From a virus: a stretch of DNA of 64,000 nt. The position numbers were made by a program, and so were the translations under genes. Positions 12,732 through 62,400 of the stretch are shown here, in pieces. A model generated the notes under the pieces. The model was not told the DNA's origin. It saw nothing but the letters and a program-made list of their open reading frames with translations, and did no database searches. The stretch covers positions 62,001 to 126,000 of IMG/VR virus record IMGVR_UViG_3300044712_001255; one strand, given 5' to 3'. Position 1 is the stretch's first letter; every line of letters starts with the position of its first letter.

Positions 12732-14336
12732 TCACAGGGCCAGCTCGTACAGTTGGTTGCCACACCCCCATATCTTGACCACGCCGGCTTCGTCGGCTAC
12801 CTGCTGCTCGGTCATCCCACGGGAACTGTCTGCTTTGAACTTGAAGCGGTTGAATCTTTGTTGTCCGTTCGTCCACCAGAAGCGTGGCATCGTGGAACTA
12901 ATAAGAGAAAACCCTGCTTGTTGGTACGCAGTACCATCACCACCGAGCCTTTCGTCTACGTACGATAATAGACGCTTCTTACCAGACGATTTAGCATACT
13001 CAATGGCACATGTCATAAGACGACTCGTACCGCCAGGAACAATTGTATTGAGCTTGTTTGCTGAACGAGCAATTTCAATTGCGTCCTTGTGCAATTTGTG
13101 AAATGGCGTTCTTACAGATAACGCAGCTACGATTTCACCTTCATAAATCAACCCCCACGCGGCAGATGCTAAGGTGTCTCCATCAAGGTGATTTGTTGCA
13201 AAAAATGCAATACGTTCCTTGTAATCAAGTTGCTTGATTGAACACTTTCGAGCCATTACCTTGTTCGTAATTGCGTTCAAACGAGCGCAGATCATTGATT
13301 TGACAATGTCTTGTTTATGATCCCACTCATCATCAAAAATGTGCATTAGCTTGATTCCCACAGCGCGGCAAGCATTTGTTTTTCCTTGATGATATTTGTT
13401 ATCTCTACGTGATTCGTTGTGCCAATAGATTCCGTTGAGTTCTATGGCGAGCTGATGTGACGGTATGTAAATGTCAAGCTCTCTTTTGTGAATCACGCCA
13501 CGAACATTGCGACCTACGTCAACGCCGATTATCGATTCAATCCAATCAGCAATTTGAAGTTGTGCCTTGCTGCCCACTGGATCACATGATTTGCACCTGT
13601 CATTTCTTGCAAATGCAAGGCTAACGACAGATTGCTCATTGCACTTGACACAACGCACGGTTATAGATTCGCTAAGACAATTTTTGTAGTTGCCTATTGA
13701 TTCAAGACGTAACACGTTGTTTTGTTGAAGTACTTCAACAATCTTATCATCTGTGAATCTGTTGTATCTTACCAACGTACCGGCTTCTATTGAACGCTTC
13801 AAACCGGCAGACGTGTGTTCACCACGTATTTTAATACGTTCATCAGTTTCCTTTGTAAGTCCCTTTGCCCATGATTCACGCCCAGTCAAACTTTCGCGAC
13901 GTTTTTGTGCAATTGATTGAGCAACCTCGGTGGCGTATGACGTGTAGATGTTGCCGTTGTGTCCAATTCTAAACGTCGAATAACCGCTCCACCAATTCAC
14001 CCATTTGGTTTGCTCACCACACCCACATTGGCATAACGTTGGTGATTGATTGTGTTTCTTCAACCACAACTCTTCAAGAGACATACCATGTAATGCGGCG
14101 TGTTTATCTCCTTCGGTTGAGTCGTTGAACTGCAATCGAATAACTTCATTGCAAATTGGGCAAGAGTCAGTCATTGCGTGTTTCTTGCCGATCGCAGATC
14201 TACTACAGGTTACGCACACCTTTTGTAGGCGCTCGGCATACATGCACTTGGCACGATTTTTATGATCAACATTGTTATTGCATTGTGGACAGATGCGTCT
14301 CCAGACGATTTGCCCTCCATCGTTTACTTCTATCAT
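12732..14336 (-). CDS. Homing endonuclease, Vsr/EDxHD (PD-(D/E)XK-related) type, minus strand
   Basis: 534 residues from the ATG at 14336; longer in-frame starts exist up to 14372, but the 14336 ATG is preceded by a -10-like TAGAAT 7 nt away. Domain order: N-terminal zinc-finger-like cysteine pairs (CPQCNNN, CVTC, CPICNEV), a CQCGCGEQTKW module, a SWAKGLTKETDER module, further Cys pairs (CVKC, CKSC), then the nuclease core KRELDIYIPSHQLAIELNGI YWHNE-type, characteristic of I-Bth0305I/Vsr-like phage homing enzymes. The C-terminal ~190 residues form the accessory domain often joined to it (GGTSRLM, SYVDERLGGDGTAYQQAGF). It is the only confident minus-strand gene in the window. Confidence 0.85.
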   Translation of the reverse strand: MIEVNDGGQIVWRRICPQCNNNVDHKNRAKCMYAERLQKVCVTCSRSAIGKKHAMTDSCPICNEVIRLQFNDSTEGDKHAALHGMSLEELWLKKHNQSPTLCQCGCGEQTKWVNWWSGYSTFRIGHNGNIYTSYATEVAQSIAQKRRESLTGRESWAKGLTKETDERIKIRGEHTSAGLKRSIEAGTLVRYNRFTDDKIVEVLQQNNVLRLESIGNYKNCLSESITVRCVKCNEQSVVSLAFARNDRCKSCDPVGSKAQLQIADWIESIIGVDVGRNVRGVIHKRELDIYIPSHQLAIELNGIYWHNESRRDNKYHQGKTNACRAVGIKLMHIFDDEWDHKQDIVKSMICARLNAITNKVMARKCSIKQLDYKERIAFFATNHLDGDTLASAAWGLIYEGEIVAALSVRTPFHKLHKDAIEIARSANKLNTIVPGGTSRLMTCAIEYAKSSGKKRLLSYVDERLGGDGTAYQQAGFSLISSTMPRFWWTNGQQRFNRFKFKADSSRGMTEQQVADEAGVVKIWGCGNQLYELAL

Positions 14337-14349
14337 ATTTGCTATTCTA
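14337..14349 (-). promoter_or_regulatory. Leaderless-type promoter of the minus-strand endonuclease
   Basis: On the minus strand TAGAAT (14349-14344) is separated by 7 nt (AGCAAAT) from the ATG at 14336. No Shine-Dalgarno sequence lies between them. Confidence 0.5.
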
Positions 14350-14436
14350 AAATATAGCATGCACATCGACACAAAGTAAACGATTTTGAGATCAATACCG
14401 TAATTAACTTGTTACCCACTCAATAGGAGATGACAC

Positions 14437-14928
14437 ATGGCAGCAGAAACACTTGATGTAACGTCTATGTTACCAAATCGATTTGAACCCAAGCGAAAGA
14501 ATCGTTGGATTCTTATGGTAGAGGGAATTGACGCCTACATCGTAAAGACCACCGCACGTCCCACATACGCAACTGACGAAGTTGAAGTTCCATTCGTCAA
14601 CAGCCGCCGCTACCTGGCGGGTCTCACCAAGTTTGAGACGATGGCTGTTACTCTACACGACCCGATCGCGCCGTCGGGCGCGCAGCAGATCATGGAGTGG
14701 ATTCGTCTCCATTTCGAGTCTGTGTCAGGTCGTGCAGGATACGCAGACTTCTACAAGCGTGACGTTCAGTTGAAACTCCTTGACCCGATCGGTACTGTTA
14801 TCGAACTTTGGGATATAAAAGGTGCATTCATCACAAATGCCACTTTCGGTGAACTTACGTATGAAGACGGAGGGCTTACTGAGATTTCTCTAACTCTCAG
14901 ATATGATAACGCGGTTTTGCAATTTTAA
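14437..14928 (+). CDS. Tail tube protein (gp19-like)
   Basis: 163 residues, the size of T4 gp19. It shows the family pattern: an N-terminal NRFEPKRKNRWILMVEGIDA, a PTYATDEVEVPFVNSRRYLA segment, and the C-terminal FGELTYEDGGLTEISLTLRY with the closing beta strands. It polymerises into the inner tube through which DNA passes, surrounded by the sheath encoded upstream. The start has AATAGGAGATGACAC. It is followed by a strong hairpin and is flanked on both sides by homing endonuclease genes. Confidence 0.93.
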   Translation: MAAETLDVTSMLPNRFEPKRKNRWILMVEGIDAYIVKTTARPTYATDEVEVPFVNSRRYLAGLTKFETMAVTLHDPIAPSGAQQIMEWIRLHFESVSGRAGYADFYKRDVQLKLLDPIGTVIELWDIKGAFITNATFGELTYEDGGLTEISLTLRYDNAVLQF

Positions 14929-14958
14929 ATCAACTGCGATTACGCAAGTAATTGTTTT

Positions 14959-14982
14959 GAAAGGCCTTTTACGAGGCCTTTC
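14959..14982 (+). terminator. Terminator-like hairpin after the tail tube gene
   Basis: A perfect 9-bp stem (GAAAGGCCT / AGGCCTTTC) with a 6-nt loop (TTTACG), 30 bp after the tube stop codon. Only a weak T-run follows, so termination may be partial. Confidence 0.6.
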
Positions 14983-15024
14983 GGCATTTAAGACGTTGGC
15001 AGTACACATTGCTTTATCATATGA

Positions 15025-15036
15025 TAGAGTGAGTTT
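15025..15036 (+). promoter_or_regulatory. Leaderless-type promoter of the HNH homing endonuclease
   Basis: An extended -10, TGA-TAGAGT (hexamer 15025-15030), stands 6 nt before ATG 15037. An overlapping sigma70-like reading, TTGGCA (14996-15001), 18 nt, TATGAT (15020-15025), would also give a very short or absent leader. Confidence 0.5.
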
Positions 15037-15825
15037 ATGTGTAAATGTCCAATGTGTGATTATGAAAATGAAAATCTAACGTCATTATCTGTTCATTATC
15101 GAAAAAAACATAAGGGAACAGCTAAACAACTTTGTATTGAATTGTTTCATGATGGTATACAACCAACATGTAAATGTGGATGTGGTAAAGCTACTAAATT
15201 CTGGACATTGCAATTGGGATTTGCTAAATATCTTCGAGGACATGTAGCTCGAGTGCATAACAATTGGGGTCATAACGAAGATGCCCAGAAGAAAAGTCAG
15301 GACGTACGTCGTGACATGCATAAAAGAGGGGAGATTTTCATTTGGAATAAGGGTCTTTCTATTGAAACTGATGATCGTGTAGCGGCATATGGTAGATCTG
15401 GATCTCATACTCTCAAAACTGACGCCGCGTGTCAAAAACAACGATCTGAACACATGTCTACGCAATGGAAATTGGGTTGTATCGTTCCCCTTCGCGGTGC
15501 TGATCATTCTCAATGGCGAGGTGGCACTTCGGCGCTGCAGCCAGTCGTCAGATCTCGGCTTCATTATGCATGGGCATATCCCAAGCTCGCAGCATCAGGA
15601 TTTAAGTGTTCGTCTTGTGGCAGATCAGATACGCTTGAGGTACACCACGACGGTGAACGTTTTGCTGATATCCTGCACAAAGCGATTATTGAGTTAGGAG
15701 AATCAGGGGATGATTTTGAAAAGAAGTCTATTATAGCTGATTGGGTCGTCAAATATCATGTTGAAAATGATATTTCTGGCGTTGTATTGTGTCAGCATTG
15801 TCATGATAGTGCACATAACTCGTAG
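15037..15825 (+). CDS. HNH homing endonuclease with zinc-finger N-terminus
   Basis: 262 residues. A C2H2-like finger at residues 2-25 (CKCPMCDYENENLTSLSVHY) is followed by a CKCGCGKATKFW module, an IWNKGLSIETDDR module, and at the C-terminus an HNH-type nuclease core: CSSCGRSDTLEVHHDGE, then VVLCQHCHDSAHN. The Cys pairs frame the catalytic HH and the final H, as in zinc-stabilised HNH folds. The N-terminal modules are shared with the two neighbouring endonucleases, which have a different nuclease domain. This is a free-standing mobile gene inserted after the tail tube gene. Confidence 0.85.
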   Translation: MCKCPMCDYENENLTSLSVHYRKKHKGTAKQLCIELFHDGIQPTCKCGCGKATKFWTLQLGFAKYLRGHVARVHNNWGHNEDAQKKSQDVRRDMHKRGEIFIWNKGLSIETDDRVAAYGRSGSHTLKTDAACQKQRSEHMSTQWKLGCIVPLRGADHSQWRGGTSALQPVVRSRLHYAWAYPKLAASGFKCSSCGRSDTLEVHHDGERFADILHKAIIELGESGDDFEKKSIIADWVVKYHVENDISGVVLCQHCHDSAHNS

Positions 15826-15846
15826 TATAGCATAAAGATAATATGC

Positions 15847-17499
15847 ATGTCTTATGATCGTATCAAGTGCCCGATATGTAACGTAGATTTTGGGCAAGAA
15901 AAGCGATTTGTTGCTCATTGCAATGATGTCCATGGTATCGTTGCAGATGAAGCATATTATGTGCAAATTGTGTGTAATGGTACAGCTCCAACGTGTGCAT
16001 GTGGTTGTGGAAAGACAACCATGTGGAATGGTTGGAAGAAGGGATACACATCACAATACTTGCGCGGTCATAATGCTGCTGTTGATAACGTATTCTCAGA
16101 CCCAGAGCGTATGAAACGCATGGTTGAGAAGCGCGTTGACGGGTACAGATCTGGAAGAATTTCTGTGTGGAACGCCGGTCTTACAAAAGAAACCGACGAA
16201 AGAGTCGCTCGGCAGTCGGTTGCTGTTTCTAATACGTTGTCGCAAGCTTATCGATCTGGTGATCTTGTTGATTGGCGCAAGACAGATCCAGAAAAAGCAA
16301 TCGAACAAGCGAAAAAGTCATCCAATACAAAGAAGCGTAAATTTGCGTCTGGAGAATCAAAGATTTGGAACGAAGGACTTACGAAGGAAACTTCGTCATC
16401 TATCGCGTCAGCTGCAGAAAAGATTTCTGCAGCTTTTCGTAATCGCCCGGATATGGGCGCTCGAATAAAACTATCGAAAGTGAAACAACGTATCGATAAG
16501 TTCTCAGACAAATTTACGTTGGTATCTAACATTAATGAATACAAACATCATGATATTACGAGATTTGTGTTTCGTTGTAATACATGTGGTGAAGAGACAT
16601 TGAAATCATTAAATATGTTAGAATCAACTCCTATTTGTTTTCATTGTCATCCTAAGGAATCTAAGGGACAACTTGAGGTACTTGATTACATTCGTTCTCT
16701 TGGGATTAATGACGTTGTATCAAATGATCGTGCTGCTATTTCTCCAAAAGAACTAGACATTTACGTGCCATCTAAGAAGTTTGCAGTTGAATACAACGGG
16801 TTATACTGGCACAGCGAACAATTTCTTGGTAAGCATTATCATGACGAAAAGCTCTCAGCGGCAGAAAATGCTGGATTGTCATTGTTGATGATCTATGAGG
16901 ACGAATGGCGTGATCGTAGACATGTGATTGAAGGTATGATCAAACATCGTCTTAACCTTGATATTGTTCGCGTTCATGCGAGAAAATGTGTCGTGAAAGA
17001 AGTACCCGTAGAACAGCGCATTGCTTTTTTTGATTCTGCGCACCTTGAGGGTGACGTTAGAAGCGTTGTTGCATTTGGATTGTATTTTGAAGATCGACTT
17101 GTTGCGTGTATGTCGTTGCGCAGGCCTTTTCATAAAAAGTATGAAGATTATCTTGAGGTTGGAAGAAGTGCTTGTTTACCAACATACGCCATTTCTGGGT
17201 GGATTGGAAAGCTCACGAAGGCATGTAAAGAATTCGTGCGTTCTAAGGGTAAGATTGGTTTGGTGACATATGTTGATTCTCGAGTGGGCAAGGGAGAGTC
17301 GTATGCAGCTGCCGGATTCAAGCTTGTTAGCAATAACACGGGTTCACGTTTGTTTTGGACAGACTACGTGAAACGGTATAATCGATTCGCGGTACGTGCA
17401 AATAAGGCAGAAGGTATCACACAAAAGCAAGCTAGTGAAGACGCAGGCGTGGTTCCCATTTGGGGGCCCGGAAATCGTCTTTTCAAATTAGACATTTGA
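15847..17499 (+). CDS. Homing endonuclease, Vsr/EDxHD type, plus strand
   Basis: 550 residues, paralogous to the minus-strand gene at 12732-14336. Domain order: C2H2-like finger (CPICNVDFGQEKRFVAHC), CACGCGKTTMW module, two copies of the (I/V)WNxGLTKET module (near residues 111 and 176), Cys pairs (CNTC, CFHC), nuclease core KELDIYVPSKKFAVEYNGLY followed by WHSE, and the C-terminal accessory domain (AISGWIGKLT, TYVDSRVGKGESYAAAGF). It begins 22 bp after the HNH gene, probably with its own promoter (AT-rich TATAGCATAAAGATAAT just upstream). Confidence 0.85.
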   Translation: MSYDRIKCPICNVDFGQEKRFVAHCNDVHGIVADEAYYVQIVCNGTAPTCACGCGKTTMWNGWKKGYTSQYLRGHNAAVDNVFSDPERMKRMVEKRVDGYRSGRISVWNAGLTKETDERVARQSVAVSNTLSQAYRSGDLVDWRKTDPEKAIEQAKKSSNTKKRKFASGESKIWNEGLTKETSSSIASAAEKISAAFRNRPDMGARIKLSKVKQRIDKFSDKFTLVSNINEYKHHDITRFVFRCNTCGEETLKSLNMLESTPICFHCHPKESKGQLEVLDYIRSLGINDVVSNDRAAISPKELDIYVPSKKFAVEYNGLYWHSEQFLGKHYHDEKLSAAENAGLSLLMIYEDEWRDRRHVIEGMIKHRLNLDIVRVHARKCVVKEVPVEQRIAFFDSAHLEGDVRSVVAFGLYFEDRLVACMSLRRPFHKKYEDYLEVGRSACLPTYAISGWIGKLTKACKEFVRSKGKIGLVTYVDSRVGKGESYAAAGFKLVSNNTGSRLFWTDYVKRYNRFAVRANKAEGITQKQASEDAGVVPIWGPGNRLFKLDI

Positions 17500-17614: not shown

Positions 17615-18649
17615 ATGAAAAAGAAAATTGGCGTATTCATTGGTCGTTTGCAGCCTGTACACAATGCTCACCTCGCCGCCATCAATATGGCGCTTTCGGA
17701 GGTTGATCACCTGATCATAGTGCTTGGTTCTGACTGCACGGCAAAGACAATCAAGAATCCTTGGACGTCTACGGAACGTAGGAAGATGTTGTTTGCGTCT
17801 TTGAATAAAAAGTTCGTTAGCAAGATTACGTTTGTTTCGGCGAAGGATTACCTCTACAACGACAACATGTGGCTCACAGCGCTGCAGTGTTCGATGAACG
17901 TTGTATATGTTGGCGATAAACCTTACAACATAGAAGATTGCGATGTAACGTTGTATGGTCATGACAAAGATCGCAGCACGTTCTACTTGCACCTCTTCCC
18001 AAAGTGGAGCTTCAAGGAGACGGGCGACCTCGGCAACGTCAGCGCAACTATGGTGAGGGAGTGCTATTTCCGCAAGGACCTGCTCACCCTGAAGCGACTC
18101 GTTCCTGAGCCGGTGTGGAACATCATGAAGGAAGACATGAAGACAGACGAATACAATCGTCTTCATGACGAGTGGAATCACGTCATCAGCTACAAGGAAC
18201 TCTGGAAGGATGCACCGTTTCCTCCCACGTTCGTCACTGTCGATGCTGTGGTAATCAAGAGCGGTCACGTGTTGGTTGTCCGGCGCGGTGCCCAACCGGG
18301 TAAGGGGCTTGTCGCTCTTCCTGGTGGATTTCTCAATACTGGCGAGAAGATCGTTGATGGTTGTGTGAGGGAACTCAAGGAAGAGACTCGAATCTCTGTC
18401 AACAAGGATGAGCTATACAAGCGAATCGTAGACCAACGCGTCTTCGATCACCCAGACAGGTCTCTTCGTGGTCGCACAATCACCCATGCATTTTGCATCG
18501 ACCTTGGGTCTGGTCCGCTGCCGAAGGTGCAGGGAGATGACGACGCCGACAAGGCGTGGTGGATGCCGCTTCGAGATGTCCTTCGACAGGAGGAACAGTT
18601 CTTCGAGGATCACTGGCACATCGTTCAGTTTTTTGTGAGCAAGTTCTAA
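17615..18649 (+). CDS. nadM: Bifunctional NMN adenylyltransferase / Nudix hydrolase
   Basis: 344 residues with two domains. Residues 1-~180: NadM-type nucleotidyltransferase with GRLQPVHNAH (ATP-binding HxxH-type motif) and NVSATMVREC (ISTTxxR-like), which joins NMN and ATP to give NAD+. Residues ~205-344: Nudix domain with the box GGFLNTGEKIVDGCVREL followed by KEETRI; the catalytic Glu residues are kept but the usual Gly in EExGU is Arg. This fusion (ADP-ribose pyrophosphatase activity in studied homologues) is known from bacteria and T4-like phages. It forms an operon with nadV 23 bp downstream and has a GGAGAG site before the ATG. Confidence 0.93.
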   Translation: MKKKIGVFIGRLQPVHNAHLAAINMALSEVDHLIIVLGSDCTAKTIKNPWTSTERRKMLFASLNKKFVSKITFVSAKDYLYNDNMWLTALQCSMNVVYVGDKPYNIEDCDVTLYGHDKDRSTFYLHLFPKWSFKETGDLGNVSATMVRECYFRKDLLTLKRLVPEPVWNIMKEDMKTDEYNRLHDEWNHVISYKELWKDAPFPPTFVTVDAVVIKSGHVLVVRRGAQPGKGLVALPGGFLNTGEKIVDGCVRELKEETRISVNKDELYKRIVDQRVFDHPDRSLRGRTITHAFCIDLGSGPLPKVQGDDDADKAWWMPLRDVLRQEEQFFEDHWHIVQFFVSKF

Positions 18650-18672
18650 GCGTAAAGAGAGGAGAATAGACA

Positions 18673-20085
18673 ATGACTACTAACAACATCATTCTTGATA
18701 CCGATTCGTACAAGGCAAGCCATTGGAAGCAGTACCCGCCAAACACCACGTCGATGTTCAGCTACATCGAGTCGCGTGGCGGAAAGTTTGACACCACAGT
18801 ATTTTTCGGGCTGCAGTATTACATCAACAAGTACCTCACCACCCGCGTCACTGTCGACATGGTTGAGGAAGCCAAGGAATTCTACGCTGCTCACGGTGAG
18901 CCCTTCAACTACGAAGGGTGGATGCGAATTGCCACTGAGCTTGGTGGTAAGCTGCCTGTGCGAATCAGGGCAGTTCGAGAGGGCACTGTCGTTGAGACGT
19001 CGAATGTGCTTGTGAGCATTGAGAGCACCGATCCCCAGACGTTTTGGGTCGCTTCGTGGTTGGAGACCATGCTTGTTAGGTTGTGGTACCCGATCAACGT
19101 TGCAACGCTCAGTTACCACACTCGTAAGGTATTTGAACGATTCTTTGATGCGACAAGCGATGACGTCGCTCCTGGTCGTGCCATGTTCAAGCTGCATGAT
19201 TTCGGTAGCCGCGGCGTATCGAGCCAGGAATCGGCTGCGATTGGTGGGGCGGCCCACTTGATCAACTTCCTTGGAAGCGACACTGTCGTGGGAATCTATA
19301 CAGCAAACAAGTTCTATGACATTCCCATGGCTGCATTCTCGATTCCCGCGGCAGAGCACAGCACGATGACATCGTGGGGCAAGGCTCGAGAATCGGCAGC
19401 GTATGAAAACATGATCAATCAGTACGGTGGACCCGGCAAGCTCTTTGCTGTTGTGTCGGACAGCTACGACATCTACAACGCAGTGAAGAACATCTGGGGT
19501 GATGAACTGAAGCAGAAGGTGATCAACATGGGTGGTACGCTAGTCGTGCGACCTGATAGCGGTCACCCACCCACAGTCGTTGTGAATATCTTGAACATCC
19601 TCGGCGACAAGTTTGGTTTCACCACCAACAGCAAGGGATACAAGGTGCTGCCGCCGTGCATCAGGGTAATTCAGGGTGACGGAGTCAATTATGATTCGAT
19701 CTATGAGATTCTCGAGGTAATGCAGCAAGCCGGATGGAGCATTGACAATGTTGCGTTCGGAATGGGTGGAGCTCTGTTGCAGGGACACAACAGGGACACT
19801 CAGAAGTTTGCAATGAAGTGCTCGAGCGTCACTGTCGACGGTGAAGAAGTGGATGTCTACAAGGATCCTGTCACTGATGACGTGAAGCGCAGCAAGCGTG
19901 GTCGCCTAGACCTTATCAAGGTGACAATTCAAGGTAGCCACGGCAAGATTGATGTGCTTCGAACGGTGAAGTTGGCTCCTGGTGAGTTGGCACATCCCGA
20001 CACTGTTATGCAGACTGTGTACGAAAACGGCGAGGTACTGGTGCGTCAAAAGTTTGATGACATCAGAAAGAATGCGTGGGGATGA
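18673..20085 (+). CDS. nadV: Nicotinamide phosphoribosyltransferase
   Basis: 470 residues, full length for NadV/NAMPT. Family motifs: DTDSYKASHWKQYP at the N-terminus (substrate entry), HDFGSRGVSSQESAAIGGAA, IPAAEHSTMTSWG with the His that is phosphorylated in the human enzyme, VVRPDSGHPP (PRPP site) and RSKRGRLDL. It converts nicotinamide plus PRPP to NMN; NadM then makes NAD+. This pair is the salvage route that phages use to refill NAD+ when host defence systems destroy it. Start: AGAGAGGAGAATAGACA before the ATG. The cassette sits within tail genes and looks richer in G+C than its neighbours by eye. Confidence 0.95.
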   Translation: MTTNNIILDTDSYKASHWKQYPPNTTSMFSYIESRGGKFDTTVFFGLQYYINKYLTTRVTVDMVEEAKEFYAAHGEPFNYEGWMRIATELGGKLPVRIRAVREGTVVETSNVLVSIESTDPQTFWVASWLETMLVRLWYPINVATLSYHTRKVFERFFDATSDDVAPGRAMFKLHDFGSRGVSSQESAAIGGAAHLINFLGSDTVVGIYTANKFYDIPMAAFSIPAAEHSTMTSWGKARESAAYENMINQYGGPGKLFAVVSDSYDIYNAVKNIWGDELKQKVINMGGTLVVRPDSGHPPTVVVNILNILGDKFGFTTNSKGYKVLPPCIRVIQGDGVNYDSIYEILEVMQQAGWSIDNVAFGMGGALLQGHNRDTQKFAMKCSSVTVDGEEVDVYKDPVTDDVKRSKRGRLDLIKVTIQGSHGKIDVLRTVKLAPGELAHPDTVMQTVYENGEVLVRQKFDDIRKNAWG

Positions 20086-33400: not shown

Positions 33401-33621
33401 GCACAGGCACAACCATCGATAACTTCTACATTTTGACGCACATAACTCATCAATTCGGTCCTGGAAAGTTTGAAACGAACTGGACGTTTGGATATTCTGA
33501 CGCGTATGCTCGAATTGAAGGCGCACCAATCTTTGTCGATAGTTTGAAGAAGTTCCTAGAAGATGAAGAAGATGATCAGACTAACGACAATATCAACGAT
33601 GCGTTCATGAATGAATACTAG
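30484..33621 (+). CDS. Large baseplate-associated virion protein
   Basis: 1,045 residues, starting 1 bp after the previous stop. The first ~150 residues are helical; a beta-rich region follows (IEFWLNHMPSIVVSRMVPFV, SLKSIDISIQPTFGFMTYKN, ATIWITYGWRHPPEPG). A helical, Lys-rich insert lies at about residues 420-560, and the last ~100 residues return to beta structure (ATMTMSSLGCPLANPAQLYF, FETNWTFGYSDAYARIEGAP) followed by an acidic tail. I do not recognise a named family; placement after the LysM-like gene points to the hub or tail tip. Confidence 0.6.
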   Translation: MADINSEEALMKYYQMVEMIDSFGARTILSSTLDSAARNSGGSDVPTNANFYKALMRLLLEVDSRGAYSITKLVEKLKELCKDGSLKSAESDELHKKIIRHIIRVYSTKGEKIDLLDDGKPYQNMYYKEEKNSGVDYMDSLLQIFPKETQSQLKKSNTSLSAVLCTAPILLPQNRNVSKIEFWLNHMPSIVVSRMVPFVDVKFTFERFDNENNKTANSTFSLIKFLEGAKMTFEGANKTLHEANFYDAGQSNEDPTMRRFYHRAGMEVFLSPQTMVNPNKEASDSRYVSITDKMRPYASLKSIDISIQPTFGFMTYKNGSLSFTLHDRSRLTEISDLIRPQLFKGATIWITYGWRHPPEPGNAYANFINNNMMMREAFMVVNTELSFDNVGQVNIKLHIATKGAIQGETNSLASNVGKDINNILNELSTITKNIMKARAAMGGGVSGFKEEVRAFQVIDQAARGTALKYDEVVKGMDQIKKLLSNKKLNNPELKQALTDVSKELSKLYGNGQGNKSLLISSKGLFSKIQNTYEQAVKQKFEAMQEGPDPWLLSNVHANKKGVKDALASKIPDWAINPEIANLLQGASFDYQSDKSASTKLKHTTRIVSFGKLFMNFVGESFAGIDGIDEVQVWFYRLNDSCGPASGMNIAEFPIEVNTIYTKYSDYVYKKRVQNISVQEFLSLVINTQFTDPRAIPYGLRMYYKPYNVSAPDPAERTGIPTTLQNGILERQSKYGVFKYPALEIMIETVHANNTNANQPVDLLTLYEYLEAPEAKKFGSMKLASGADGDRRIMRVHVYDKSVDPYPTESSMLRDKQGFIYEIPASPASKKYFSEQQEIVRKGYAKDQSDKRQQDALSKALRGQQGIRMYKSDAQAVSTEGAFEKMAEFVARGVPTITYGSNGTTIKNCNVSSKADPLLSTANMIRPEGDPNSVQPNGAGFGNMPIRVVPATMTMSSLGCPLANPAQLYFFNFGTGTTIDNFYILTHITHQFGPGKFETNWTFGYSDAYARIEGAPIFVDSLKKFLEDEEDDQTNDNINDAFMNEY

Positions 33622-33633
33622 ACACACGTATGG

Positions 33634-33645
33634 TAACATTGAGCC
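33634..33645 (+). promoter_or_regulatory. Leaderless-type promoter of the DNA polymerase gene
   Basis: Extended -10 TGG-TAACAT (hexamer 33634-33639), then 6 nt (TGAGCC), then ATG 33646. There is no Shine-Dalgarno sequence. Confidence 0.55.
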
Positions 33646-36031: not shown

Positions 36032-36054
36032 TGTCACGATTTACACTCGTGACA
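36032..36054 (+). terminator. Hairpin before the methyltransferase gene
   Basis: 8-bp stem TGTCACGA/TCGTGACA with a 7-nt loop. No T-tract follows. It lies just upstream of the leaderless-type promoter at 36062, so it probably insulates the next gene. Confidence 0.4.
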
Positions 36055-36061
36055 CACTGTG

Positions 36062-36073
36062 TATAGTTTAGGC
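36062..36073 (+). promoter_or_regulatory. Leaderless-type promoter of the methyltransferase
   Basis: TATAGT (36062-36067) followed by 6 nt (TTAGGC) and ATG 36074, preceded by TGTG. Confidence 0.55.
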
Positions 36074-39478: not shown

Positions 39479-39514
39479 TTGATAGACCGGGCACGGGTTT
39501 GTTATGATGGCTGC
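39479..39514 (+). promoter_or_regulatory. Promoter of the 5' nuclease gene, leaderless-type
   Basis: TTGATA (39479-39484), 18 nt, then TATGAT (39503-39508) preceded by TGT, then 6 nt to ATG 39515. This is the one case in the set with a good -35 box as well. Confidence 0.65.
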
Positions 39515-46453: not shown

Positions 46454-46744
46454 ATGAAGCACAAACAAAAGATGATTCGCGTCACAGCGAAACAACTGCG
46501 TGAGATGATCTTACGCGAAGAGGTGCTTCGTGGCATCCCTGATTTTGTTCTTGTTGACGAAATCTCAAAAATGGTAGAAGCAATGCGAAATGCATTGTTG
46601 AAGTACGCAGAGGAAGAGAAAGCTGGCGACGAGAAGACTATCAATGACACAATAGCGCACATCGATGAATTTGTTCAAGAAGTGTCTGTTGGTTGTAAGG
46701 CAGTGCTTGAAGAGAAGCTCTCTGATTTGATACAGAAATTGTAA
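46454..46744 (+). CDS. Small helical protein with capsid-targeting-like N-terminus
   Basis: 96 residues, almost entirely helical. The N-terminus RVTAKQLREMILREEV matches the shared LRxxIxxE element also seen at 11459 and 57521. The remainder is a long charged helix pair. TAATAT at 46439-46444 lies 9 nt before the ATG and there is no ribosome site, so it may also be leaderless. A packaged internal protein is a possibility. Confidence 0.55.
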   Translation: MKHKQKMIRVTAKQLREMILREEVLRGIPDFVLVDEISKMVEAMRNALLKYAEEEKAGDEKTINDTIAHIDEFVQEVSVGCKAVLEEKLSDLIQKL

Positions 46745-46769
46745 CACTGAACATTACCATCTTGTGTGT

Positions 46770-46781
46770 TACAGTTGAGAC
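46770..46781 (+). promoter_or_regulatory. Leaderless-type promoter of thyX
   Basis: Extended -10 TGT-TACAGT (hexamer 46770-46775), 6 nt (TGAGAC), ATG 46782. Confidence 0.55.
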
Positions 46782-49227: not shown

Positions 49228-49254
49228 CGAAGAGGGACACAATGTCCCTCTTCG
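49228..49254 (+). terminator. Strong terminator after hsp20
   Basis: 12-bp perfect stem (49228-49239 with 49243-49254), 3-nt loop, followed by TGTTTATA. It also sits just before the next promoter. Confidence 0.7.
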
Positions 49255-49258
49255 TGTT

Positions 49259-49271
49259 TATACTTACTTGC
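49259..49271 (+). promoter_or_regulatory. Leaderless-type promoter of the C39-like peptidase gene
   Basis: TATACT (49259-49264), 7 nt (TACTTGC), ATG 49272, directly behind the terminator stem. Confidence 0.55.
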
Positions 49272-50462: not shown

Positions 50463-50486
50463 TGTGTAGATCACGTTCGTGTAGGG

Positions 50487-50498
50487 TACATTGTACCC
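50487..50498 (+). promoter_or_regulatory. Leaderless-type promoter of the pnkp gene
   Basis: TACATT (50487-50492), 6 nt (GTACCC), ATG 50499. The short palindrome GGGTACATTGTACCC spans it and may be an operator. Confidence 0.5.
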
Positions 50499-52338: not shown

Positions 52339-52524
52339 ATGACAAAACACACGTGGAGCGCCGAAGAGATCATTGGTTACACGCCGCCAGTACCGCGTCC
52401 GATTGGCACTGGATTCAAGACACCGATAATCAAAGTTGAGTGTCTTGAGTGTGGTAAAGTGGTGGCAGGTGATAAGGGATCTGCTAAGCTTGAAAGCGAC
52501 TTGCTCGAAGAAACATGTGTTTGA
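52339..52524 (+). CDS. Very small Cys-pair protein
   Basis: 61 residues: Pro-rich N-terminal half (IIGYTPPVPRPIGTGFKTP), a CLEC pair, and a final Cys. TATAAA at 52325-52330 lies 8 nt before the ATG, so this may also be leaderless. Function unknown. Confidence 0.5.
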   Translation: MTKHTWSAEEIIGYTPPVPRPIGTGFKTPIIKVECLECGKVVAGDKGSAKLESDLLEETCV

Positions 52525-55662: not shown

Positions 55663-56583
55663 ATGTCAATAGAAGAAGTGAAGTTTCAACATTATGCGTG
55701 GTCTCCCGAACAACGAGATGCGTTGAGGGATATTTTTCGTAATTGTTTGTCTTCTCATGAGGCTAAGACATTGTCAATTGCATTTGAAGCTGGTGGGATG
55801 ATTTGTGGTGGTGCAGCGAGGCGTATAGCTGCATCGCTGTTCAAGATCAATGCACGACCACGCACAAATCATGTTGATTACGTTTCATCATATTTTCGCG
55901 ACGGTCGTCATGACTCTTTCAATAAACCTGGCGATATTGACGTATTCTTCCCAACAGATGAGTCAGTGACGCGATTTTGGCGCAACTTCTCGGTGTCGAG
56001 CATTCCAAGCGTTGCGCATGTCTCTGAATCTGTGTTGGGATATGCACGAAACATTCGCATCAACACAGGTGTGAACATTCAGGTAGTAAAACCTGTGTGT
56101 GGGTCTACTGTTGAACATCAGTTGGCGTCATTTGACATCTACAATGCAATGATTGGGTTGAATGCGCATAAGGCGATCATTCCTGACGAGTGGCATTACC
56201 TTGAACAACATTCAATGTTGCATGTTCACAGATTTCAGACTGATTATCAGCTGAAACGCATCATCAAGTGGATGACGCGGCAACAATACGAGTCGCTTTC
56301 TCCCAAAACGGCGTCAGAAGTTGGCACCTATGCGTTTGAGTTGATGGAACGTATCAAGGAGGCTGATGGTCTTCCAACTCCTTGGAAGGACGTAAAAATT
56401 ACTGTCGATACAGTACGTCATGCGCTTTATCCGTTGCTTACGCACCTCACGAATGACCAGTTACTTTTGTTGTCAACCGTCATGATGACTCGAGATAGCT
56501 ACGGCAATATCGGCGCCAACCCGGCAATGGATATAATTCAGGATCGATCAAAGCAAACAATTTGTAGTGCAAATAGTGACTAA
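55663..56583 (+). CDS. Predicted nucleotidyltransferase-fold protein
   Basis: 306 residues from ATG 55663. The pattern GGMICGGAARRIAASLF, then NKPGDIDVFFPT (GG..R plus DxD), is that of the Pol-beta-like nucleotidyltransferase superfamily, in the form used by several unnamed phage proteins. The middle (VQVVKPVCGSTVEHQLASFD-like) and the helical C-terminal half are compatible with a tRNA-nucleotidyltransferase-like layout, but catalytic identity is unproven. Close to the RNA repair cluster, an RNA-end activity is an attractive guess only. Confidence 0.55.
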   Translation: MSIEEVKFQHYAWSPEQRDALRDIFRNCLSSHEAKTLSIAFEAGGMICGGAARRIAASLFKINARPRTNHVDYVSSYFRDGRHDSFNKPGDIDVFFPTDESVTRFWRNFSVSSIPSVAHVSESVLGYARNIRINTGVNIQVVKPVCGSTVEHQLASFDIYNAMIGLNAHKAIIPDEWHYLEQHSMLHVHRFQTDYQLKRIIKWMTRQQYESLSPKTASEVGTYAFELMERIKEADGLPTPWKDVKITVDTVRHALYPLLTHLTNDQLLLLSTVMMTRDSYGNIGANPAMDIIQDRSKQTICSANSD

Positions 56584-56589
56584 GAAAGG

Positions 56590-56601
56590 TATAGTAACCA
56601 C
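56590..56601 (+). promoter_or_regulatory. Leaderless-type promoter
   Basis: TATAGT (56590-56595), 6 nt (AACCAC), ATG 56602, just after the upstream stop. Confidence 0.55.
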
Positions 56602-57794: not shown

Positions 57795-58949
57795 ATGGAG
57801 TTGAAGCTGAAATTACGCCAGCTACAGGACGTTGCACGGACGACCTTAAATGAAGACAAGGCTATCCAAACACTGCGCGAGGAGGCTCGTAAGGTGTTTG
57901 GCCCTACGATGCGTGTCGATGGTACGCCAGTTGCTCTTGCGACTCGTATCAATGATCACCTTTCGTACCTTGAACACACCGGAGCTGATGTTGACGTACG
58001 AGTCAAGACGTCTGTTTTGACTGCGTTGATGAAGCATCCAGTAGCCGAAGTACGCAAAGTGGCTGCTCGGTTGTTGCCTGAAAAGCTTGCGTTGAACATG
58101 ACTCAGGACAGGGATGCTGGCGTAAGAGCTACAATTGCCCGCCGCATGCCTGCGCAGATCGTTAAGGAAATGTGCAAACGTTATCCGAACGATGATCAAC
58201 TTCACACCATCTTGTCTGAAGCTGTTGAAGAATTTGATATTCATGGCGATAAACGACTTGGAGATTCTGCAAAAACAAAGACTATTGAGTTGTCTGAGGC
58301 GTGGTACGAGCAACAGGCTCAACGCATCCTCGAAGATTACAATGAATTCAGCAGCGCAATGCCTCGTCAAATTGACAGGCACTGGAACCCGCTTGCTGTA
58401 AGGCGATACGTTGATAGCGTAAGGGCAACGTCTGGCGTCACAATCGACGTTGAGCGTTTACAAAAGGCTGTTGATAAGTTGCTTGAGGACCTTGATGATC
58501 GTAGGGAAGAGAACTACGAATACCGCACTATGCGCGAGGTCAAGGCCTCATTGAAACAACTTGTCAATGAAGACGTCTCAGGCGCTCGTCAAGTGATGCC
58601 AGTTATTTCTGAGGCAGAAGAAGACGTTGTTAAAAATCTTTTGAACTCGCAGATGTCTTCGCATGAATATATGCGTTTCTTCGAGTCAATCTTCAGAGTT
58701 CGTAAGGCAAATGTGCCAGCAGCGATTCGCAAGTATCGTTTGGGTGAAGGAATCTCTCACGATACGTTGGTTCCCATGAAGGCATACTTGCCTCACGGTC
58801 GCCTCGACGAAGTTACTGAACACGCTATTGATCGATACGTTACTGCGTGGTCTGACGCCCAAAAATTGGTGGGCGAGCCACTGCAACTTGGGTGGAACGC
58901 AGACCCAGGTGACACTTCTGTCATTGGATTCGATCTTGCTCTGTTTTGA
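57795..58949 (+). CDS. HEAT-repeat-like protein
   Basis: 384 residues. The N-terminus ELKLKLRQLQDVARTTLNED is helical. From about residue 55 there are HEAT-type units with the DxxVR signature (VDVRVKTSVLTALMKHPVAE, then VRKVAARLL, and DRDAGVRATIARRM). The C-terminal half is helical with no recognised domain. HEAT proteins usually bind other proteins or nucleic acid. GCGAGGAGTTTCC gives a good ribosome site. The gene precedes the Dps-like gene by 6 bp. Confidence 0.6.
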   Translation: MELKLKLRQLQDVARTTLNEDKAIQTLREEARKVFGPTMRVDGTPVALATRINDHLSYLEHTGADVDVRVKTSVLTALMKHPVAEVRKVAARLLPEKLALNMTQDRDAGVRATIARRMPAQIVKEMCKRYPNDDQLHTILSEAVEEFDIHGDKRLGDSAKTKTIELSEAWYEQQAQRILEDYNEFSSAMPRQIDRHWNPLAVRRYVDSVRATSGVTIDVERLQKAVDKLLEDLDDRREENYEYRTMREVKASLKQLVNEDVSGARQVMPVISEAEEDVVKNLLNSQMSSHEYMRFFESIFRVRKANVPAAIRKYRLGEGISHDTLVPMKAYLPHGRLDEVTEHAIDRYVTAWSDAQKLVGEPLQLGWNADPGDTSVIGFDLALF

Positions 58950-58955
58950 GGTAAA

Positions 58956-59540
58956 ATGCGCAGACTAAGAGAATTCACAAATGACGTTGTGTCTGGTGAC
59001 GTAGTACCAGTGTCAGCAACTGATACAAACAACACTGAGGTGCGTCAAAATATTCGAATGGATAACAACCTTGGAGTGTGGAACAGCGTTCATTATGGTG
59101 CACTTTCTGCGCTTCTTGCGCATCTGCGTTTTGTGTACTTTGTGCACCAGTTTTATCACTGGACCGCGGGTGGTACGGCGTTTTACGGCGATCATCTGAT
59201 GTTCCAGCGTATGTACGAAAAAACTCTTGAAGAGATCGATGATCTTGCTGAGAGGGCGATTGGCTTGGGAAGTAACGATAACGTTGATTTGCTAATGCAA
59301 TTTCAAACAATCGTTCCCTTGATCAAGGGATTTGGTCAATCTGTAACGCACGGTCGTGATTCAAATGCCGCTAAAAGAGCGCTAGAACTTGAATGCGAAT
59401 TGCTTATGATGATTGACAAAACCATCGAACATTTGGAGATGGATGGCCTAATGACAGTTGGTCTTGATGATCTTCTACCAAATATCAAGGCAAATCATGA
59501 GGGCCATGTTTACCTGTTGAAGCAAAGGTGTGGACAATGA
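58956..59540 (+). CDS. Dps-type ferritin-like protein
   Basis: 194 residues. The ferroxidase signature of Dps is intact with exact spacing: H68, H80 (12 apart), D95 (15 further), E99 (4 further), in YFVHQFYHWTAGGTAFYGDH and EIDDLAERAIG; the HW after the first His is also typical. Dps forms 12-mers, oxidises iron with peroxide and can bind and compact DNA. The N-terminal ~40 residues are an unusual extension. A phage-carried Dps could protect the phage genome or manage iron during infection. GAGGTAAA precedes the ATG. Confidence 0.75.
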   Translation: MRRLREFTNDVVSGDVVPVSATDTNNTEVRQNIRMDNNLGVWNSVHYGALSALLAHLRFVYFVHQFYHWTAGGTAFYGDHLMFQRMYEKTLEEIDDLAERAIGLGSNDNVDLLMQFQTIVPLIKGFGQSVTHGRDSNAAKRALELECELLMMIDKTIEHLEMDGLMTVGLDDLLPNIKANHEGHVYLLKQRCGQ

Positions 59541-60247
59541 ACCAACAGACGCCATTTGACCCTGAGGGCGAAGTAGCAGAAGAAGTTACAGATATCAAAT
59601 ATGATCGTTGGCGTGATTTGGCAATTCGCTTTCGTCAAGACGGTAGAGTTGATGCAAATCCATCACAGATTGAATCAGCAATTAATGCGTTACACAAAGC
59701 ATTAGAATTTGCTGGTGAACGTGGCATGTCTCAAGGTGAGATAGAGAAATTCTTCGTTGAAGACGTTGGATTACGACTTACGCCAACGCAAGTCAACACG
59801 CTTATTGATATCATGGCGTTTGATTTTGGTCTTGTATATGATGATGGGGGAGATAAGATATTTCTTGACGTTATTGATGAAGCGTTCGGTCATGTTGTGA
59901 AATCTCCTGAGGGACACGTCGGTATCGAAGACGAAGGTCCAGGTGGCAAGACAACTTACGACGAAGATGCAAAAGAGGGTTTCTGGTCAGCGCCAGAAGT
60001 TTTCTCAGAGGCAAAGAAAAAGGGTCCGTCAAAGAAAGCAGCAAAAGGCTGGGTAAAGGGCACAAAGACCTTCAAACAAAAGGTGAATAAGGCAAAGAAG
60101 ATTCCAGGCATCGACAATCCTGAGGGATTTGCTGCTTCCACGGAACACAAGGCCACCGGTAAGTGGCCAAAGCACGGCAAGAAAAATGAGTCTGTGCTTC
60201 AACAGTTCATAATGAATGTGTTGGCTGAACAAATGAAGGACAAGTGA
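59537..60247 (+). CDS. Hypothetical protein with helical N-terminus and basic tail
   Basis: 236 residues from ATG 59537 (overlaps the Dps gene stop). Residues 1-110: winged-helix-like helices (SQIESAINALHKALEFAGER, LTPTQVNTLIDIMAFDFGLV). Residues ~150-210: Lys/Gly-rich, probably disordered and DNA-binding (KKGPSKKAAKGWVKGTKTFK). The C-terminus ends with a QQFIMNVLAEQ segment. No family recognised. Confidence 0.55.
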   Translation: MNQQTPFDPEGEVAEEVTDIKYDRWRDLAIRFRQDGRVDANPSQIESAINALHKALEFAGERGMSQGEIEKFFVEDVGLRLTPTQVNTLIDIMAFDFGLVYDDGGDKIFLDVIDEAFGHVVKSPEGHVGIEDEGPGGKTTYDEDAKEGFWSAPEVFSEAKKKGPSKKAAKGWVKGTKTFKQKVNKAKKIPGIDNPEGFAASTEHKATGKWPKHGKKNESVLQQFIMNVLAEQMKDK

Positions 60248-60260
60248 TATTATCGCAAGC
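60248..60260 (+). promoter_or_regulatory. Leaderless-type promoter
   Basis: Extended -10 TGA-TATTAT (hexamer 60248-60253), 7 nt (CGCAAGC), ATG 60261. Confidence 0.55.
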
Positions 60261-60575
60261 ATGCAGCACCTTGCTGAGATGCTTGTAGAGTTTACCACAG
60301 TATTGTTTAGATTTGATCCAATGAATCTTGGATCGTCTAATCCACTTGAATATGACAAGGAAGCTTTGTCAATTTTGTCTCGTTTTGTCGAGAGCGGAGT
60401 TCACAAGGCAGATTATGTAGAAGCGTTGAAAATCGTCATACAAACGTTCAAGTTTTGGTTTGAAAAAGATTCAAGCCCTGAACAACTTGCCAAATTGGGG
60501 GAGCTTGCGACGGAACTCTATGATCTGATGAAGAAAAGATACGTGTTGGTCGATATTTCGGAGACATTGGGATGA
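60261..60575 (+). CDS. Small helical hypothetical protein
   Basis: 104 residues, helical (LVEFTTVLFRFDPMNLGSS, YVEALKIVIQTFKFWFEKD). Its stop overlaps the epimerase start (ATGA), so it is co-translated with it. No family recognised. Confidence 0.6.
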   Translation: MQHLAEMLVEFTTVLFRFDPMNLGSSNPLEYDKEALSILSRFVESGVHKADYVEALKIVIQTFKFWFEKDSSPEQLAKLGELATELYDLMKKRYVLVDISETLG

Positions 60576-61552
60576 AGACAGTCGTTATTACTGGCGCAGC
60601 TGGGTTTCTTGGTAGTCATCTTTCGAATCGATTTCTCAACGCTGGATGGCGTGTAATTGGAATAGATGATTTTTCAACTGCGCTGGGACGCTCAGCGCCG
60701 CATTTTGTTGAACTGTCGTTACGTAATAATTTCATTTTTTACGCAGAAGATATTTGTGAGTTGCAACCAGCGCTTTTTGGGATGCGTGGTGTTGGTAAGA
60801 TCGATCTTATTTTGAATTTTGCATGTCCCGCGTCACCTCCTCGTTATCAAGCAATACCCATCAAGACAATGATGACATGTGTTTGGGGTGTTGACAAAAT
60901 GTTGAGGCTCGCTCACCAACATAAATGTCCCATTGTCCATGCCTCAACTTCTGAGGTGTACGGAGATCCTGAGATTTCACCTCAAGCCGAGGAGTACAGA
61001 GGCGTAGTAAATTCGTATGGGCCACGAGCATGCTATGATGAAGGTAAGCGTGCAGCAGAAGCACTGTGTTATGACTGGACGACAAAGTTTGGCGTAGACG
61101 CAAGATTGGTAAGAATTTTCAATACTTACGGGCCTCACATGGATCCAAATGATGGACGAGTTGTGAGCAATTTCATAACTCAAGCGCTGAACGATGATCC
61201 TCTTACGATCTACGGGAGTGGCGAACAAACACGATCATTCTGCTACGTAGATGATCTTGTGGAAGGCATCTATCGTGTATCGCAACTGCCGGCTGGGCGT
61301 CTAAATGGACCCGTCAATCTTGGTAATCCACATGAATTTACAATCATCCAACTCGCTAATGTTGTTGCTGCAGTTTTGAATAAGAAACACCTCATTACAT
61401 TTGAAGCACTTCCTGTGGATGATCCACGTCAACGAAAGCCCGATATTACAAAGGCTCGTCTGTTGCTTGACGGGTGGGAACCTCAAGTTGAACTTCGATA
61501 TGGAATCGAGAAGAGTGTTGACTGGTTCAAGCGAGTGTTGCACATCAAGTGA
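60572..61552 (+). CDS. NAD-dependent sugar epimerase/decarboxylase (UDP-xylose synthase-like)
   Basis: 326 residues, a short-chain dehydrogenase fold. N-terminal nucleotide motif VITGAAGFLGSHLSN; catalytic region ACPASPPRYQAIP, HASTSEVYGDPEISPQ, NSYGPRACYDEGKRAAEAL with the YxxxK pair; later RIFNTYGPHMDPNDGRVVSN. This sequence set is closest to UDP-glucuronate decarboxylases (UDP-xylose synthases). It would make a nucleotide sugar for modifying phage DNA, virion or host surface; no glycosyltransferase is in the window. Confidence 0.87.
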   Translation: MKTVVITGAAGFLGSHLSNRFLNAGWRVIGIDDFSTALGRSAPHFVELSLRNNFIFYAEDICELQPALFGMRGVGKIDLILNFACPASPPRYQAIPIKTMMTCVWGVDKMLRLAHQHKCPIVHASTSEVYGDPEISPQAEEYRGVVNSYGPRACYDEGKRAAEALCYDWTTKFGVDARLVRIFNTYGPHMDPNDGRVVSNFITQALNDDPLTIYGSGEQTRSFCYVDDLVEGIYRVSQLPAGRLNGPVNLGNPHEFTIIQLANVVAAVLNKKHLITFEALPVDDPRQRKPDITKARLLLDGWEPQVELRYGIEKSVDWFKRVLHIK

Positions 61553-61557
61553 TGTGG

Positions 61558-61569
61558 TAACATGTCTTT
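61558..61569 (+). promoter_or_regulatory. Leaderless-type promoter
   Basis: Extended -10 TGG-TAACAT (hexamer 61558-61563), 6 nt (GTCTTT), ATG 61570; the same hexamer as at the polymerase gene. Confidence 0.55.
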
Positions 61570-62400
61570 ATGCTAAGAGACTGCTTGTTCATGGCGGGCG
61601 AATTCAGCCTAACCATGAAATTGACCTTTAGACGTGATCGTTGGTGGCATACGTGTTCTGCGTCTCGATTGCAACATGTCACTCATGGCGTAGTTCGTCG
61701 TGAAAAGTTTTTGCGTGAAGAACTGCGTGGAATTATCTTCTACGCAGACGTTGATGATAAACAATTGGAATCTGAATCTTTGCAGGCAATCATTGCTAGT
61801 GAAGTTCCATGTTGGCCTGACCCAAATACGCTGCTGCGCATGATCGACAGACACTGCGTCATGTCGAAGCTCATTGAACTTGGTCTTGTTGATCATGATG
61901 TTTGGCAAGGAATGCATCATGCTCGTACACACCACGGGCTCACGAATTATCCCTTGGTATTGAAGGTTGGGAACAACCATCGTGGGCAAGGAAAATATCT
62001 CGTGCCAACGTGGGATGACCTGAACCAATTTCCAGAGTGGCAGGGTATCGCTACTCTTGAACCATTCTTCTCAGGGGACTCGTACAGGGTATTGTTGGTC
62101 GGCGAAGACGCATTCGGAATTCGTGTTGCAAATGGGCAAAGCTGGATCAAGAACTCCGTTGGAGCTGATGCATCATTTGATACGCCATGCAATGAAATTG
62201 TTGCGCATGCTCGCAAAGTTGCCAATGAGTTTGCGCTCGATGTTGCAGGAGTGGATTACGTTGTAAACCCTCGACACCCAGAAGATTTTCACTTCCTTGA
62301 GGTAAATCAGTTCCCTGGTATACCGCTCGACCTGCCAGGTATTGAGCGTGTTGAGCATTTCATAGATTCACGTATGCAGTGGGTAGAAAATGAAATTTGA
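61570..62400 (+). CDS. ATP-grasp ligase-like protein
   Basis: 276 residues. ATP-grasp hallmarks: PLVLKVGNNHRGQGKYLV (glycine-rich ATP loop after the lysine), TLEPFFSGDSYRVLLVGEDA, GVDYVVNPRHPEDFHFLEVN with the metal Glu/Asn pair, then QFPGIPLDLPGIERVEHF. The layout is RimK/synapsin-like. Such enzymes join a carboxylate to an amine, often adding amino acids to proteins or small peptides. Next to the sugar epimerase, a surface or protein modification role is possible. Confidence 0.78.
   Translation: MLRDCLFMAGEFSLTMKLTFRRDRWWHTCSASRLQHVTHGVVRREKFLREELRGIIFYADVDDKQLESESLQAIIASEVPCWPDPNTLLRMIDRHCVMSKLIELGLVDHDVWQGMHHARTHHGLTNYPLVLKVGNNHRGQGKYLVPTWDDLNQFPEWQGIATLEPFFSGDSYRVLLVGEDAFGIRVANGQSWIKNSVGADASFDTPCNEIVAHARKVANEFALDVAGVDYVVNPRHPEDFHFLEVNQFPGIPLDLPGIERVEHFIDSRMQWVENEI

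Follow-up and report, generated by a model that had tools for sequence, protein, structure and literature searches.

The leaderless mode of gene expression is itself known, and clear precedents for it exist in the Thermus phage phiYS40, in Cluster O mycobacteriophages and in the work on TANNNT motifs of bacteria. Most middle and late mRNAs of phiYS40 are reported as leaderless (PMC3594737). In bacterial leaderless genes TANNNT lies some 12 bp ahead of the start codon (Zheng et al. 2011, PMC3160421), and those of Deinococcus are described with a -10 motif at that position (PMC12340547). For the Cluster O mycobacteriophages, leaderless SigA promoters were predicted with +1 on the start codon's first base; these account for two or three of the 8-9 promoters that were predicted, which are SigA-like (PMC4351075). 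According to a passing remark elsewhere, phages often make leaderless transcripts (PMC5312081). Here we analyzed a 64,000-nucleotide stretch of viral DNA (the window), positions 62001-126000 of the 324,468-base virus record IMGVR_UViG_3300044712_001255, the whole of which is labelled G000. A previous inspection of this DNA (the sequence-only reading) had described a TANNNT hexamer 6 or 7 nucleotides (nt) before the ATG of eleven genes and proposed that these are leaderless promoters; its remark that it knew of no phage of this kind with so many is too strong, in view of phiYS40, if taken to mean that no such phage is described. On the sequence evidence presented below, the eleven sites are very probably real sigma70-family promoters giving leaderless mRNAs, of a class common to some members of an uncultured jumbo-phage group.

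Hexamer and distance were correct in all eleven named genes, the distance being 6 nt in eight and 7 nt in three (14336 on the minus strand, 49272 and 60261). The TGn extension, announced for at least six, is present in exactly six (15037, 33646, 39515, 46782, 60261 and 61570). On the minus strand, the putative promoter of gene 14336-12732, whose product is HNH/homing-endonuclease-like, occupies 14337..14371 and reads TGTCGA-N16-TAGAAT, 7 nt from the ATG. The other ten candidates lie on the plus strand: upstream of 15037 (weak HNH matches; 15003..15036), TGA TAGAGT at 6 nt with TACACA as the upstream hexamer; of 33646 (DNA polymerase A-like; 33612..33645), TGAATA-N16-TAACAT with TGG at 6 nt; of 36074 (weak methyltransferase match; 36040..36073), TTTACA-N16-TATAGT at 6 nt; of 39515 (5'-3' exonuclease; 39481..39514), TGT TATGAT at 6 nt; of 46782 (ThyX; 46748..46781), TGAACA-N16-TACAGT with TGT at 6 nt; of 49272 (C39-peptidase-like; 49237..49271), TATACT at 7 nt without a clear -35; and of 50499 (polynucleotide kinase; 50465..50498), TGTAGA-N16-TACATT at 6 nt. 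The last three precede genes whose products are without a match: 56602 (56568..56601), TGCAAA-N16-TATAGT at 6 nt; 60261 (60226..60260), TGAACA-N16-TATTAT with TGA at 7 nt; and 61570 (61536..61569), TGTTGC-N16-TAACAT with TGG at 6 nt. As for the weaker versions mentioned for four other genes, inspection by eye found them at 3339 and 48117 (about 5 nt) and at 46454 (about 9 nt), and no TANNNT was seen at 52339.

To measure the signal, genes were taken from a small codon-usage caller made for the analysis (60 in the window), leaving out those that lacked an ATG in frame close to the called start and those lying too near the end of a stretch. A usable ATG was available for 58 window genes, and eleven of them carried the motif; 1000 dinucleotide shuffles of the upstream sets gave a mean of 2.8 (standard deviation 1.5, maximum 8), which bears out the expected enrichment; at the minus-strand site the caller scored ATG 14366 rather than 14336. 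Over the candidate ATGs of window genes, TANNNT stood at 6 nt in nine and at 7 nt in three, against 0-5 at other distances. A held-out set of five other G000 stretches (95 kb, 105 called genes) reproduced this in weaker form, with 6 and 7 genes at these two distances against a mean of 3.0 per other distance, and in window and held-out stretches combined (159 kb) the motif was present in 24/161 genes (shuffle mean 7.8, maximum 17). A motif search by expectation maximization with free position collapsed to uninformative motifs, and we therefore adopted a fixed-position mixture and a -10 matrix from a foreign phage, namely G003, one of 34 related virus records (G001-G034) compared with G000. With this matrix, the 6-7 nt bin held eight genes in the window, where the other bins averaged 0.46 (p 6e-6), and nine in the held-out stretches, where they averaged 1.15 (p 7e-4). 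When all window ATGs were counted without gene calls, no clear TANNNT peak appeared, indicating that the signal is tied to gene starts; TGnTANNNT gave a small plus-strand peak in this count, with seven at 6 nt against 0-4 elsewhere.

The base directly before the ATG (-1) lies outside the searched motif. It is C at eight and T at three of the eleven sites, hence a pyrimidine at all of them. Over the 159 kb, a pyrimidine was found at -1 in 23/24 motif genes against 65/137 others (Fisher 3e-6), and in G003 in 26/30 against 52/100 (6e-4). Transcription initiation favours a pyrimidine preceding a purine, so this base fits a transcription start at the A of the ATG. Shine-Dalgarno (SD) sites were found in only 3/24 motif genes of G000 against 76/137 others. 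Among the listed genes the claimed absence of a ribosome site held in 10/11; 56602 departs from it, with the SD-like 4-mer AAGG in the tested interval. The bacterial leaderless genes of the Zheng and Deinococcus type resemble those of the G000 group in that TANNNT is equally placed, above background and fused to the start codon, and the lack of an SD site that goes with this type extends to 21/24 motif genes of G000. The former belong to cellular genomes, whereas the latter belong to phages and share a non-canonical -35.

That -35-like element had been missed, as the sequence-only reading held that most of these promoters lack a -35 box. It stands 16-18 nt upstream of the -10 and reads TGWACA in G000 and GTGNAA in relatives. 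Seven of the eleven window sites have a hexamer opening with TG at spacer 16, against 0-2 at each of the other spacers between 8 and 27 (binomial 1e-6, uncorrected for the 20 spacings examined). At 13 held-out sites, TG-opened hexamers occurred five times at spacer 16 and three times at 17, and also four times at 23. Aligned on the -10, the G000 sites yielded TGWACA with a 16-nt spacer (log-likelihood 47.2 against 18.8, standard deviation 2.1, in 20 shuffles) and those of G003 yielded GTGAAC with an 18-nt spacer (86.0 against 18.3, standard deviation 2.4). No TTGAC was found at the 24 G000 motif sites at spacers 0-33, and the canonical sigma70/SigA TTGAC-like -35 at 17-19 nt was not enriched over the reversed pattern in G000 (23/21), G003 (10/7), G021 (1/2) or G028 (2/3). 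The promoter would thus consist of a TGWACA-like -35, a 16-17 nt spacer, an often extended TANNNT -10 and a discriminator of 6-7 nt ending in a pyrimidine. With transcription predicted to begin on the A of the ATG, leaderless, AUG-first mRNAs are expected, and these would be translated without an SD site, probably early or midway in infection.

The arrangement recurs at orthologous genes of the sampled loci, counted without duplicates and N-terminally incomplete sequences. TANNNT stood at 6-7 nt in 15/44 orthologues of the exonuclease, 5/9 of ThyX and 6/17 of the polymerase (at 5 nt in four more), and in only 1/54 of SSB, 1/58 of UvsX and 1/46 of DnaB. Taken together this is 26/70 against 3/158 (Fisher 2e-12, with the loci being related and kinship uncorrected). 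Conversely, SD-like 4-mers were present upstream of 54/54 SSB, 53/58 UvsX and 36/46 DnaB genes against 19/44, 3/9 and 1/17 for exonuclease, ThyX and polymerase. Among the 26 motif orthologues, 19 have TGWA 15-25 nt ahead of the -10 and 25 have C or T at -1, and the 20 of them from exonuclease and ThyX keep the same TANNNT-ATG spacing at 51-69% identity. Since exonuclease, ThyX and polymerase orthologues keep TANNNT at 6-7 nt, the leaderless type itself appears conserved for these three genes. In G000, fused promoters would serve a minority of genes, which in the window belong to DNA metabolism, the HNH type or unknowns, and the UvsX, SSB and DnaB genes of the group would mostly retain SD-like leaders.

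The phage sigma described below, used alone as a query, gave zero matches in viral contigs, and relatives were therefore reached via UvsX (80 loci kept, 19 records followed) and via an alignment of the small helix protein, also described below, which led to 181 loci, of which 80 were kept, and to 15 followed records. The pattern TGNTANNNTN6ATG was counted on both strands against its reversed form, giving 32/12 in G000 itself. Among the UvsX-reached records the counts were 19/5 in G003, 23/8 in G006, 15/3 in G018, 8/2 in G017, 7/1 in G007, 5/2 in G004, 7/4 in G001, 6/4 in G002, 5/4 in G014, 9/12 in G019 and 4/7 in G011, the other eight having 0-3 against 0-2. The helix-protein-reached records gave 48/3 in G021, 34/7 in G028, 17/3 in G020, 12/3 in G022, 12/2 in G026, 12/5 in G027, 7/0 in G029, 6/1 in G033, 3/2 in G032, 2/1 in G031, 9/8 in G024, 6/5 in G025, 7/9 in G023, 4/5 in G030 and 2/5 in G034. 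TANNNT was found at 6-7 nt in 52/114 genes over 53 kb of G021 (C at -1 in 49/52) and in 31/60 genes over 36 kb of G028 (C in 28/31), so that the fused class would reach about half of the genes in these two stretches, which were picked for their richness in sites and whose shares are not genome averages. Independently of gene calls, GTGNA-N17-19-TANNNT had 65 matches in G021 and 61 in G028 (reversed, 5 in each), with an ATG at exactly 6 nt after 42 and 38 of them, respectively; the corresponding figures were 16/39 in G003 (reversed 28) and 9/50 in G006 (reversed 49). The longer GTGNAA-N17/18-TANNNT was in excess over its reverse in G021 (52/1), G028 (48/1), G006 (24/10) and G003 (13/7), and not in G000 (18/19), G018 (11/11), G019 (13/10), G023 (6/8), G024 (6/6) or G011 (9/11). 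In G003, an unsupervised mixture over 130 genes, given no motif, returned a class of 33 genes with ggTAggaT at 6 nt and C at -1. We also observed in G021 (L217 and L218, 57001-90000) a long minus-strand series of genes, most of them small, in which many have a fused GTGNAA/TAGGAT promoter to themselves.

The same pattern was counted in 18 phage records for comparison. As a positive control, phiYS40, also a large phage, gave 14 against 2 reversed. It differs from G000 in its TTGAC -35 (35 against 4 reversed in a 50 kb stretch, 5 with an ATG at 6/7), in its 152 kb genome and in its known host. As in the G000 group, an excess was found in the Streptomyces phages TomSawyer (MN369750; 16/5) and Blueeyedbeauty (NC_048720; 11/1), and these fused extended -10 motifs suggest leaderless genes in these two cultured actinophages. 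Their promoters are of the TTGAC type, with 70/11 reversed and 13 with an ATG at 6/7 in TomSawyer, whose stretches include repeated end genes, and 34/8 reversed and 3 with an ATG at 6/7 in Blueeyedbeauty; a count of all ATGs over 50 kb of the latter gave no 6-nt peak. Among the other records the counts were 8/5 (T4), 20/19 (phiKZ), 8/6 (SPO1), 4/2 (Mx1), 12/16 (Mel-JY01) and 35/35 (SCTP-2), with 0 against 0-2 in two mycobacteriophages and one Gordonia phage. The remainder of the comparison set gave 42/37 (LR756502), 18/19 (LR756511), 12/12 (LR756508), 2/4 (LucasX), 0/2 (CcrColossus) and 0/0 (P23-45). Since the Streptomyces phages and phiYS40 use TTGAC-type promoters in the stretches read, the new group differs from them in its -35, and G021 and G028 also in the share of fused promoters.

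The sequence-only reading had taken the leaderless geometry as a hint of a host among Actinobacteria or Deinococcota. WhiB is a frequent, though not obligatory, marker of phages of Actinobacteria. It is carried by both TomSawyer and Blueeyedbeauty and was found in none of the 31 records searched, which take in all but four of the 34 relatives. Together with the TTGAC element, in place of GTGNAA, of the tested Streptomyces and Thermus phages, this leaves the hint unsupported, and an actinobacterial host in particular was rejected on the WhiB result and the different -35. Four contigs of metagenome-assembled genomes carrying the helix protein were assigned to Flavobacteriales, Methylococcaceae, Halobacteriovorax and Legionellales, which point to no consistent host.

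Which factor might read such promoters was considered from the sigma-like genes of the phage. G000 encodes an RpoD-like sigma body at G000:C1:263876-264457 on the plus strand (record coordinates, outside the window; open frame of 294 amino acids), with a Sigma70_r2 match at E 1.7e-23 and RpoD/SigA as best PDB matches. The body ends before the region 4.2 helix and has no continuation in other frames. About 250 kb away, at G000:C1:12247-12342 on the minus strand (record coordinates, again outside the window), lies the gene of a separate Cys-rich protein of 86 amino acids with a sigma 4.2-like helix, the helix protein mentioned above. Region 4 is split between them, positions 2-20 being in the body (weak, E 0.097) and 19-50 in the 86-amino-acid protein (E 1.4e-8). 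The sigma 2-3 body and the region-4-like part are therefore encoded by different genes; T4 gp55/gp33 is the two-part phage sigma for comparison. Two further weak region-4 matches occur in G000, at 149774 and 117363. Related bodies were found in 10 of the 19 UvsX-reached records, and all ten stop near the end point of the G000 body, the C-termini read being those of these ten as distinct from the bodies of helix-protein-reached records and the sigmas of cultured phages. A region-4 match above the family cut-off was present in 8/14 further records, in six as a small separate frame. The helix protein matches 181 viral loci, and its segment RMRICQIEK is invariant in seven aligned phages; a pattern search found no helix protein in three of ten loci searched (L114, L115, L119), and two queries against cultured phages gave no match. 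The sigma matches 287 cultured phage records, 24 of them over at least 80% of its length, and Synechococcus phage sigmas align to its last residues at 27-31% identity, so sigma bodies as such are not private to the G000 group. We found no report of these phages, or of a phage sigma split in this way, in the open-licence papers searched.

Spacing, initiator pyrimidine, depletion of SD sites and three sets of conserved orthologues sustain the leaderless reading, which loses its missing -35, its host hint and its claim to be without precedent. Several observations weigh against it. Held-out raw counts were equally high at 12 nt (7) and 19 nt (8); the motif is moderate in G000, where the unsupervised mixture returned only a weak class; and over the 159 kb neither GTGNA-N17-19-TANNNT (82 against 78 reversed, 7 with an ATG at 6 nt) nor TGWAC-N16-18-TANNNT (33 against 50) was enriched. 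The SD anti-correlation was not seen in G003 (p 0.41) or G021 (p 0.19), perhaps because TAGGAT contains AGGA. In many related records the excess is small or absent; that of G006 appears without gene calls and vanishes with the gene caller, its unsupervised mixture having no -10 class. Applied to ten further records, the G003 matrix was significant only in G007 (4 genes, p 0.002), the other nine giving p 0.05-1, including G006 (1/78 genes), with just 15-21 genes each in eight. The motif was absent from orthologues of 36074 (0/1) and of the kinase 50499 (0/2), and no orthologues of 49272 and 61570 were found in the sampled loci. Could the sites be chance matches of a loose three-base motif in AT-rich upstream DNA? 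TANNNT is indeed loose and the all-ATG count of the window lacks a clear peak, but shuffles, held-out stretches, -1 base, fixed -35 spacing and orthologues all contradict this, leaving it hardly credible. It is also quite improbable, though less so, that the promoters are real and translation starts further downstream, at a codon that has a ribosome site, or that the RNA starts a few nt upstream. The start codons come from our own caller and several genes have nearby in-frame starts; however, in G021 and G028 the ATG at exactly 6 nt stands well above neighbouring distances, and the 20 exonuclease and ThyX orthologues keep the spacing.

Granting leaderless promoters, their reader is most likely the host RNA polymerase with a host sigma, an assignment we hold at somewhat better than even. 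The main alternative, that the RpoD-like body and the helix protein form a two-part sigma reading the non-canonical -35, is rather unlikely. In its favour are a body without a 4.2 helix together with a separate protein carrying one, the common end point of the ten bodies, the invariant RMRICQIEK, the many viral loci and the lack of TTGAC enrichment in G000, G003, G021 and G028. However, G018, G019, G023 and G024 have both parts without an excess of GTGNAA promoters, which makes a host sigma the likelier reader, and G011, in which only the body was found, has none either. The RMRICQIEK segment of G018 and G019 is identical to that of G000, as it is in G021, G028, G023 and G024, in these four by construction since they were found with the search pattern RMRICQI; and a body was found in 8 of the 15 records with a helix protein, these records being fragmentary. 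The own-sigma reading is kept open by G024, where TGWAC-N16-18-TANNNT occurs 22 times against 10, and by the extended -10 excess of G018. Somewhat less likely still is the fuller proposal that a sigma split into two unlinked genes in a widespread uncultured jumbo-phage group reads, in part of that group, a private GTGNAA/TGWAC-17-18 nt-TANNNT promoter giving AUG-first transcripts. If true, a phage regulon would depend on the phage's own split sigma for its transcription and on the leaderless mode for its translation, and the split sigma, if working as a pair, would be a counterpart to the T4 proteins.

Leaderless expression would be extended from the few described phages to part of an uncultured giant-phage group with an unusual -35, reaching up to about half of a stretch's genes. 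Fused promoters would offer a cheap means of correcting start codons in such genomes and could point toward hosts with efficient translation of leaderless mRNA, and G000 would be one virus with a testable division between leaderless and SD genes.

Judged by its window genes, which include two tail-sheath genes, UvsX, a DnaB-like helicase and a nicotinamide adenine dinucleotide (NAD) salvage pair, G000 is probably a T4-like jumbo myovirus. No close cultured relative was found: a 5-kb gene of G000 had no DNA match among 50,697 phage records, and helicase, nicotinamide phosphoribosyltransferase and the UvsX of G001 as queries gave only matches below 60% identity, those listed for helicase and UvsX being at 30-39%. 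The motif of T4-like late promoters, TATAAATA, occurs 0 times on both strands of the 159 kb of G000, and a late-promoter reading of this type was rejected. The adjacent large tail-sheath-like genes (5355-8381 and 8430-11441, plus strand), of about 1000 amino acids each, have GGAG-type sites upstream, as seen by eye. Two homing-endonuclease/HNH-type proteins with weak Mom-like matches, at 12732-14336 (minus strand) and 15847-17499 (plus strand), flank a short divergent region. Finally, the salvage pair lies at 17615-20085 (plus strand) and consists of a nicotinamide mononucleotide adenylyltransferase-NUDIX fusion adjoining nicotinamide phosphoribosyltransferase; NAD capping of the A-starting leaderless RNAs of G000 is conceivable in principle.

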